Shown here one piece after another: positions 56,875 through 58,419 of a DNA stretch of 62,901 nucleotides. Position 1 is the stretch's first letter; every line of letters begins with the position of its first letter. The position numbers and the translations under genes were made by a program. The notes beneath the pieces were generated by a model. That model was not told the DNA's origin and did not search any database. It worked only from the letters and a program-made list of their open reading frames with translations. The DNA comes from Thermobifida cellulosilytica TB100 (lineage in GTDB: Bacteria; Actinomycetota; Actinomycetes; Streptosporangiales; Streptosporangiaceae): the NCBI RefSeq assembly GCF_001517975.1, contig NZ_KQ950189.1, positions 13,232 to 76,132 of the forward strand. Direction: 5' to 3'.

Positions 56875-57035
56875 GTTCCATCCACTCCTTACATCCTTCG
56901 GCCGCAAGGTCCGCCCGTGGTGGACACGCCCCGGCCTGGTGGGCCGCGGACGCCGGTATCGCCTACTGGTCGGTGGCTCCATTGTCGCGCATATCGAAGG
57001 CGGCGGTTCGGAAAGCGCGGCAGCGCCGAAAGCCG

Positions 57036-57041
57036 TAGCAT
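57036..57041 (+). promoter_or_regulatory. -10 element for leaderless gene at 57049
   Basis: TAGCAT seven bases before the GTG at 57049; supports this start over the ATG at 57040, which it overlaps. Confidence 0.5.
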
Positions 57042-57048
57042 GGCCCGC

Positions 57049-57498
57049 GTGCCCCTATACGCCGCATACGCCAACAATCTCGATCCGGACCAGATGGCCG
57101 AGTGCGCGCCGCACTCGCCGCTGTGGAACACCGGTTGGTTGCAGGGCTGGAGACTGACCTTCGGCGGCGGCAGCGCCCAGGGCGACGGCGCACTGGCCAC
57201 CGTGGTGGAAGACCCCGGTTCCAGCGTGTTCGTGGCGCTCTACGACGTCGCCGACTGGGACCTGCAACGACTGGACGGCTGGGAGGGCGGCGACATCGGC
57301 GTCTACACCCGGATCAAGGTGCGGGTCACCACCCTGCTGGACGGGGAGGTCACCGCGTGGACCCACGTTCTCAACGACTACGAGGGCGGCCTGCCCACCG
57401 CCCGGTACCTGGAGATGCTCGCCACCGCGGCGGAGAAGGCCGGCGCGCCCCTCGACTACGTGCTGGACCTGCGTTCCCGACCGTGTGAGCCGAGATAG
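57049..57498 (+). CDS. Gamma-glutamylcyclotransferase-like protein
   Basis: 149-residue protein. The N-terminus PLYAAYANNLDPDQM is close to the gamma-glutamylcyclotransferase YGSN signature (Y-A-N-N here), followed by PHSPLWNTGWLQGWRLTFGGGSAQGDGALATVV and VFVALYDVADWDLQRLDGWEG, which fit the fold. Such proteins release 5-oxoproline from gamma-glutamyl compounds; actinobacterial members may act on other substrates. A GCS2-type gamma-glutamyl ligase gene lies 4 kb away. The GTG at 57049 follows a TAGCAT box and gives the PLYAAY start; the ATG nine bases upstream is the alternative. Confidence 0.8.
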   Translation: MPLYAAYANNLDPDQMAECAPHSPLWNTGWLQGWRLTFGGGSAQGDGALATVVEDPGSSVFVALYDVADWDLQRLDGWEGGDIGVYTRIKVRVTTLLDGEVTAWTHVLNDYEGGLPTARYLEMLATAAEKAGAPLDYVLDLRSRPCEPR

Positions 57499-57504
57499 CG
57501 GACA

Positions 57505-57802
57505 CGAAAGAAGGCTCCCGGAGCAGAGGCGCCGCGTCCGCATGGTCCGAGCCGGACGCCCGCCTCTCCTCCGGGAGCCGTGTGCCCGGGGCGCCGGTTC
57601 GGCACCGGAGCGGCGTGGCGAGCAGCATCCCGATGTCGAGATGGTTCCGCGCCGATGCCGTGGCCGACGGTCCGTGACACTGCGTACGCCGGGCACCTGT
57701 CCGCGCAACCTGTGCCGAGACGTACTCACTGCTTTCGGGTGACCCGCGCTTCACCCGGGGACGTTCGGGGCCGGTCCTGCACCGCCCCCATCCCTTTAGG
57801 CA
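57505..57802 (-). ncRNA. Candidate iron-responsive small RNA
   Basis: Predicted minus-strand transcript of roughly 300 bases, from about seven bases past the -10 TAGGTT (57814-57809) to the hairpin-T-tract terminator (57579-57513, then TTCTTTC). It sits between two convergent genes with no other apparent purpose. A reading of the first 78 bases gives a 25-codon frame from ATG 57804-57802 to a TGA, so a tiny leaderless peptide is the main alternative. Existence is inferred, not shown. Confidence 0.4.
57513..57579 (-). terminator. Hairpin and T-tract terminator of the candidate small RNA
   Basis: Long stem: ggctcccggag (57513-57523) pairs with ctccgggagcc (57569-57579), then agaggcg with cgcctct and a further six pairs, with small bulges. 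On the minus strand the stem is followed by TTCTTTC (57512-57506). On the plus strand it lies 14 bases after the preceding gene but without a T tract, so it may also end that gene. Confidence 0.65.
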
Positions 57803-57815
57803 TGCCTAACCTAAC
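57797..57815 (-). promoter_or_regulatory. DtxR/IdeR-type iron box over a -10 element
   Basis: TTAGGCATGCCTAACCTAA on the plus strand matches the iron-box consensus TTAGGTTAGGCTAACCTAA at 15 of 19 positions. On the minus strand it overlaps the -10 TAGGTT (57814-57809), with TTGACC (57838-57833) 18 bases upstream as -35. Iron-bound regulator would block this promoter. Confidence 0.65.
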
Positions 57816-57849
57816 CCGTATGGGGCATGCGGGTCAAGTGGGACGGCGG

Positions 57850-58419
57850 TCACAGCAGCGCCAGCGACGCCAGCCACAGCGCCACCGGGACGGCCAGCGC
57901 GGCCACCGCGTCCGGCGACCACACCACCGTCGGCCCGGTCGACGCGCCCCCGGCCGCGAGGCGGGCCTTGTGCCGCTCCGCCTCCGAGCGCAGCGTCCGG
58001 GCCACCCGCTCCGTGGGGCGCAGCTCGCGCGGGTCGTCCTTCTCCTCACCGAAGCCGTTGAGGCGGCGCAGGTTCCGCCGCACCTCGGCGCGCTTGTTCT
58101 CCCGCAGCGACCAGGAGCGGAACACCTGGTCGCCGGCGTGCACCCGCAGGACGTCGGTGACGTCGGCCCAGGTGAAGTCGGCCCACGGCACGAAGACCTC
58201 GCGCAGCGGGTTGACCAGGCGCACGCCCTCCTCGGTCGCCACGACCTTGGGGCGCACCGCCAGCACGTACACGGCCCCCACGGTGACCAGCAGCACCGCC
58301 CCGGAGACGACCGCGCGGAAGTCGGTCCCCCGCACCACCAGGTCCACGAGCAGGAACACCGAGATCACCACCCAGGCCCACCCGAGGACGTGGGAGACGG
58401 GCTGCCGGAAGGTGGTCAT
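57850..58419 (-). CDS. Small membrane protein with PH-domain-like region
   Basis: 189 residues. Two N-terminal membrane helices ([22 protein letters not shown] and [20 protein letters not shown]), a soluble domain starting [32 protein letters not shown] (the bacterial PH-like pattern), a charged middle, and one C-terminal helix ([19 protein letters not shown]). Function unknown. The ATG at 58419 overlaps the adenosine deaminase stop by four bases (ATGA), so it is translated with it; GGAAG lies just upstream. Confidence 0.78.

Follow-up and report, generated by a model that had tools for sequence, protein, structure and literature searches.

A predicted iron-repressed, iron-sparing small RNA of the Nocardiopsaceae with complementary sites at the acn and sdhC translation starts

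What purpose could be served by a promoter that is covered by an iron-regulator box and followed on the same strand by a long terminator-like hairpin, if the ~215 nt of minus strand that separate box from hairpin hold no conserved open reading frame (ORF)? One stretch of the window—by which we mean the whole 62,901 nucleotides of Thermobifida cellulosilytica TB100 DNA that were analysed—raises this question, and the original prediction answered it with a short iron-responsive RNA of about 300 bases. Family members, conserved structure and complementary sites at acn and sdhC, all of them read from genomes, lend support to that answer. We argue here that the locus very probably encodes an iron-repressed, trans-acting small RNA, which would be iron-sparing by pairing with the acn and sdhC mRNAs.

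Read directly, the minus-strand promoter that had been proposed (TTGACC-N18-TAGGTT) is confirmed, as is the long hairpin followed by TTCTTTC, and the iron box does lie over the -10 hexamer, one base away from where it had first been placed (Table 1). On the plus strand the box agrees at 16 of 19 positions with the DtxR consensus, and its core, TTAGGNNNNSCTAA, occurs at just 2 places in the 4.43-Mb genome. The folding z is -6.64 for the terminator stretch (57506-57582) and -4.65 for the whole 297-nt stretch. A generic sigma-70 scan listed no promoter at the locus, and a terminator scan did not list the hairpin, whose predicted apical loop exceeds the length that the scan permits; the case thus rests on conservation and not on consensus alone. 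Promoter, box and terminator frame a non-coding unit of ~296 nt, a stand-alone unit with conserved structure and its own terminator, the transcript itself being predicted.

Table 1. Features of the locus, in positions of the window.
Feature	Positions	Strand	Remarks
-35 hexamer TTGACC	57832..57837	minus	read directly; kept in relatives
-10 hexamer TAGGTT	57808..57813	minus	inside the iron box
DtxR/IdeR-type box TTAGGTTAGGCATGCCTAA (minus)	57796..57814	.	covers the -10 and the inferred transcription start
Predicted small RNA, ~296 nt	57506..57801	minus	start inferred ~7 nt past the -10; 3' end taken as the T-rich tract
CACCCGAAA, diverged counterpart of the CAACUGAAUA element of other genera	57733..57741	minus	
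Module H5, an outer stem around an inner hairpin and a single-stranded bulge that bears the putative targeting motif	57599..57661	minus	
H5 inner hairpin CAUCUC-loop-GGGAUG	57626..57643	minus	
Predicted seed CUCGCCAC	57615..57622	minus	core UCGCCAC at 57615-57621
Terminator hairpin	57513..57579	minus	read directly; folding z
T-rich tract TTCTTTC	57506..57512	minus	directly 3' of the terminator hairpin
Bacterial PH-domain protein gene (bPH_6)	57850..58419	minus	upstream neighbour; conserved, separate gene
Gamma-glutamylcyclotransferase-like protein gene	57040..57498	plus	convergent neighbour

How far does this unit extend beyond a single genome? By DNA search, three congeners carry the stretch at 75-76% identity and further genera give short matches; in the congener alignment the box and its flanks form a long invariant block, followed ~165 nt downstream by a second conserved block. 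R1, a covariance model built on this downstream block and not including the box, matches 28 of 341 family genomes. Twenty-five of these matches are preceded on the same strand by TTGAC and a box (at most 2 mismatches) that lies over the -10 as in the window; the same strand of the remaining 3 is without a box, its best candidate having 8-9 mismatches. The pattern box-N55-85-YGAATA, to which UCGCCAC does not belong, was run over GTDB r220 contigs and returned 37 stretches, 35 of them under names that we take to be those of Nocardiopsaceae, a family known for its producers of antibiotics and cellulases. The names are Nocardiopsis, Streptomonospora, Murinocardiopsis, Marinitenerispora, Actinorugispora and an unnamed Nocardiopsaceae bacterium; the other two stretches are one labelled Glycomyces fuscus and one metagenome-assembled genome named Actinomycetes bacterium. 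The record labelled Glycomyces fuscus (L058, NYMS01000004.1) carries both the RNA and its PH-domain neighbour; NCBI places that species in the Glycomycetaceae, and the label may be wrong.

Sixty-three candidate loci were reduced to 50 distinct members by removing 13 with identical first 120 nt, and these 50, nearly all from the Nocardiopsaceae, carry promoter, box and structured non-coding RNA, with the proviso that 37 of them came through the pattern demanding box and YGAATA, so that conservation of the box among members gathered by it is partly a matter of construction. All 48 members with upstream sequence have TTGAC spaced 17-19 nt from TAGGTW. Box and structured RNA, for which the original prediction had proposed a comparison across relatives, occur together in 50 distinct members, and stems covary. 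Sixteen genera of the family have the RNA: 14 from the R1 search, plus the genus of G013, plus g60. R1 matches 47 of the 50 members at E <=0.1, and it misses or scores low most of the Nocardiopsis members. Searched against 394 genomes of the class, it gave 39 matches at E <=0.05, partly known carriers; four loci from matches outside the family (L206-L209) have no box, and among three weak matches inside it G129 and G155 have both box and UCGCCAC, and G127 is without a box. Rfam returned no family for positions 57000-58300 at E up to 1 and, for six relatives, nothing within the RNA, the single match being a viral leader outside it.

The neighbourhood is partly kept as well. The PH-domain gene lies on the same strand within 500 nt upstream in 45 members out of the 47 whose upstream sequence exceeds 700 nt, and this recurrence argues for a single ancestral locus. 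The gamma-glutamylcyclotransferase-like gene is convergent in 18 of the 50 members, at <=340 nt from the box in 4 and >1.2 kb away in 14.

What, then, does such an RNA display? The motif UCGCCAC is present in every one of the 50 RNAs and in 2 of 47 length-matched controls taken from upstream; 20 RNAs hold at least 2 copies, and the copies are placed in hairpin loops or in an unpaired bulge (in the window, the core has a mean unpaired probability of 0.95). Around it lie further recurrent parts. A 5' hairpin carries a GCGCGGA-type loop, which lies within the first 45 nt in 46 of the 50 members and is missing from the window, and GCGCGGA shows again in the terminator hairpin of many members; L025 and L031 are examples in which the loop stands in both the first and the terminator hairpins. 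The CAACUGAAUA element, replaced in the window's genus, is counted in 44 of 50, largely by construction, YGAATA being part of the search pattern. A UCUGCGGGGA loop is found in 33 of 50. Judgement by eye lies behind hairpins 1 and 4, the terminators of members and the ends that give the RNAs a range of ~290-440 nt. In one member (L047) an apparent extra insertion, ~80-220 nt past the box, separates the CAACTGAATA element from the AUCGCCAC hairpin.

Two of the stems can be examined for paired change. Hairpin H3 (stem 7 bp, loop 8 nt) was found in 20 of the 50 members within the scanned part, not in the window, and its alignment holds 16 distinct sequences of 21 candidates from those 20 members (one second site was omitted), 15 of the 16 with AUCGCCAC. 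Its loop stays constant while the stem sequence changes: 90.2% of stem cells are paired and 20 cells are doubly changed, compared with 6.3 for shuffled versions, none of the 500 reaching 20, and the number of pairs with a double change is less clear (equalled in 101 of 500 shuffles). Module H5, in which an outer stem encloses an inner hairpin CAUCCC-loop-GGGAUG and the UCGCCAC bulge, recurs in many members. Forty-five of the 50 fitted the expression for the inner hairpin, and in them 268 of 270 pairs form, the 5' arm having been picked for best pairing, which favours structure; the third pair is UA in 27, CG in 13 and UG in 5. Two alignments were selected by equal loop and spacer length. The covariation score of A7 (16 rows) is reached by 0 of 500 shuffles, its outer stem being just 70.5% paired and its number of pair types ordinary (191/500), and A8 (14 rows of H5 from close relatives) is 100% paired with weak covariation, 34 of 500 shuffles reaching its score.

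If the exposed motif is a seed, where are its partners? UCGCCAC was noticed before any gene was examined; the complements of six motifs were then tried, six gene groups were covered in all, and complementarity to the translation starts of iron-protein mRNAs was found for acn and sdhC. At acn, GUGGCGA stands just 5' of the Shine-Dalgarno (SD) sequence, 24-26 nt ahead of the start, in 14 of 14 carriers inspected (10/10 first inspected and 4/4 further ones reached through named loci), a count of orthologous sites that share ancestry and hence not of 14 independent events. The site is absent from ten genomes in which the RNA is not known (0/10; an eleventh, G019, gave no locus), though in several of them the first acn codons are identical. 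Of these 11 comparison genomes, G006 has a weak R1 match (E 0.02), and G025, G026, G031 and G040 come from outside the family and were not part of the R1 family search. At sdhC, all 14 carriers inspected have GUGGCGAACAG at the inferred GUG start. None of 5 comparison genomes does; these are the 5 of 11 with a PF01127 match (L205 left out), and only G012, G041 and G046 among them resemble true orthologues. In the carrier G010, the sdhC that bears the site (L133) falls below the Pfam cut-off, and the other PF01127 matches (L122, L132) are without it. Sites that are present in carriers and absent from comparison genomes suggest that the RNA and its putative targets have been evolving together.

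How often would one meet GUGGCGA anyway? It occurs 165 times over 699,554 positions, a background of 0.014 per 60 nt. Placed before an SD sequence and a start, it gives 141 matches in 10 genomes versus 87 for the reversed pattern, and acn is the only SD-linked site that was noticed, by eye, in all ten. Judged by the duplex energy of the exposed segment, acn is not set apart (195 of 500 shuffles, and 65 of 128 SD-like sites of the window, are as good), and sdhC is (6 of 500 shuffles as good). Seed and sites hardly vary, so that there is no usable covariation between RNA and mRNA. A strict acn pattern occurs in 78 of the 341 family genomes, in 17 genera; 61 of the 78 lie in 16 genera other than g72, each of which has the RNA in at least one genome. 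Among R1-found carriers, 23 of 25 have the pattern (G158 and G161 are without it), and it is missing in G155, where the RNA is present. The 17 genomes of g72 (within G250-G301) have GUGGCGA directly before the acn SD sequence, mostly as GTGGCGAC and in a different context, and no RNA was detected in those 17; the site there may be either chance or a diverged counterpart.

Other genes fared less well, and some side observations belong with them. As further conserved targets they have weak support or none: the leuC site is present 46-65 nt upstream in 5 of 14 carriers and in 0 of 11 others, ferritin loci have GUGGCGA in 2/9, at differing places and with uncertain starts, and nuoA (1/12) and dps (0/8) are negative. 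The complements TCCGCGC, TCCCCGC, TTCAGTTG, CTATTCA and GAGGCC had no conserved site at the genes examined, and no partner was found for the GCGCGGA-type and UCUGCGGGGA loops. Upstream of ferritin genes (L108, L111, L113) there are CCTAACTTTGGGA and TTACCTTAA-like repeats that resemble DtxR/IdeR boxes, and they look like signs of iron storage under the same regulator. Upstream of sdhC, carriers (L123-L131) repeatedly show a palindrome of the type CATAGCC-TA-YGGCTATG, and two other genomes (L201, L202) have a similar one there. At G095:C58:109477-109563 three 28-bp repeats stand in tandem, each with GTGGCGA and GGGAGG.

Complementary sites at the acn and sdhC starts are what one would expect of an iron-sparing RNA, and a mechanism can be sketched. 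While iron is present, a metal-bound DtxR-type repressor would cover the promoter; in iron starvation, the RNA would be made. Its segment CUCGCCAC could then pair over 8 bp with GUGGCGAG, just before the acn SD sequence, and CUG together with the inner-hairpin loop GCCUC could extend the pairing across the acn CAG and the SD sequence GAGGC. UCGCCAC would likewise pair over the sdhC GUG start codon. With ribosome entry blocked, translation of acn and sdhC would fall, iron-rich enzymes of the tricarboxylic acid (TCA) cycle would be lowered and iron would be freed for essential uses, that is, an iron-sparing response. A more elaborate version, which we put forward tentatively, sees the RNA as a multi-armed hub of ~290-440 nt, showing UCGCCAC in 2-3 separate loops in many members and GCGCGGA and UCUGCGGGGA for further mRNA or protein partners, such that several targets might be held at once. 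No Hfq, the RNA chaperone that usually assists such RNAs, is known from this lineage.

Could the same DNA be read in some other way? Leaderless mRNAs are common in actinobacteria, and the original prediction had kept as its other option a 25-codon peptide from ATG 57804. The ATG in question (57803-57801) does sit inside the box, at or before the inferred transcript start, as a short leaderless mRNA would have it, but ATGCCTAA is forced by the box, and the ORF that follows differs in frame among the 50 members, its length ranging from 4 to >150 codons; the many ORFs that end near 24-31 codons do so at the CAACUGAAUAG element, two frames of which contain stops. On this variation in length and frame the peptide was rejected, and we give it next to no credence. 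One might also suppose that the transcript is a 3' untranslated extension of, or read-through from, the PH-domain gene, with the box incidental. That gene's place upstream on the same strand, in nearly all members in which it could be seen, would allow it, but the spacing from TTGAC to box is kept in 48/48 and G024 has a hairpin and T-run between PH gene and promoter, and we think such an origin very unlikely.

Harder to dismiss are the readings that accept the RNA and doubt its use. It might be real and iron-controlled and yet act mainly by binding protein through its repeated loops (UCGCCAC, GCGCGGA, UCUGCGGGGA), in the manner of a sponge, its mRNA matches being secondary. Short loop motifs that recur while stems change would suit a protein, as would the loops for which no mRNA partner has turned up so far (GCGCGGA-type in 46/50, UCUGCGGGGA in 33/50), but the complement of UCGCCAC lies at the acn and sdhC starts in all 14 carriers and not in the comparison genomes, and we judge a primarily protein-binding role improbable. 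Then there is the chance that GUGGCGA at acn and sdhC serves another purpose, for example as a protein site, and that its match to the RNA is coincidence. The acn site of the 17 g72 genomes in which no RNA was detected, and duplex energies that fail to single out acn, speak for this; against it, two genes of the same pathway carry a motif so rare in the background, and the comparison genomes are without the sites. We consider coincidence unlikely, and a trans-acting, iron-sparing RNA remains the reading that we prefer.

How does this predicted RNA stand beside those already known? The original prediction called it a counterpart of RyhB or the mycobacterial MrsI, and of this the iron-sparing logic, which the locus resembles, survives; a search of Rfam gave no match that would point to a relation in sequence. 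RyhB, of the enterobacteria, belongs to a Fur/Hfq system and is ~90 nt long. Our candidate is like it in its predicted repression by iron and lowering of iron enzymes of the TCA cycle, and unlike it in that Rfam gives no RyhB-family match over positions 57000-58300 (E up to 1). A search of the open-licence PMC literature gave no description of the RNA, nor of any iron-sparing RNA for the Nocardiopsaceae; a paper on Streptomyces non-coding RNAs mentions Thermobifida fusca a single time, in connection with two convergent genes that have nothing to do with the locus described here (PMC3765725).

According to its description, MrsI (ncRv11846) is a mycobacterial iron-sparing small RNA of 100-106 nt with an IdeR site in its promoter, made in iron starvation and equipped with a short, 6-nt seed against iron-protein mRNAs, its targets being hypF, bfrA and fprA (PMC8628891). 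The RNA predicted here shares its actinobacterial home, a DtxR/IdeR-type site in the promoter, the predicted production in iron starvation and a short predicted seed against iron-protein mRNAs. It is set apart by length (~296 nt versus 100-106 nt) and by targets: acn and sdhC match here, and no conserved site was seen at the ferritin loci examined, in contrast with hypF, bfrA and fprA. IsrR of staphylococci and FsrA of Bacillus, described in a further paper, have Fur boxes and C-rich motifs, and such iron RNAs are said there not to be orthologues and yet to share targets (PMC9410917). The likeness lies in multiple single-stranded motifs carried by, or lying next to, separate stems, in iron regulation (predicted here) and in iron-enzyme targets, and the difference in lineage and in the Fur boxes and C-rich motifs of those RNAs, any relation in sequence having been examined through Rfam alone.

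Why should one more such RNA matter? Its predicted target sites are precise enough for a test by one seed mutation, and its other conserved loops, for which no partner is known, pose the testable question of how such an RNA presents its seeds. If true, actinobacteria outside the mycobacteria would have arrived at the RyhB logic independently. Our best reading, by analogy, is that the RNA would work like MrsI, RyhB, FsrA and IsrR, and we claim for it membership in none of these families.
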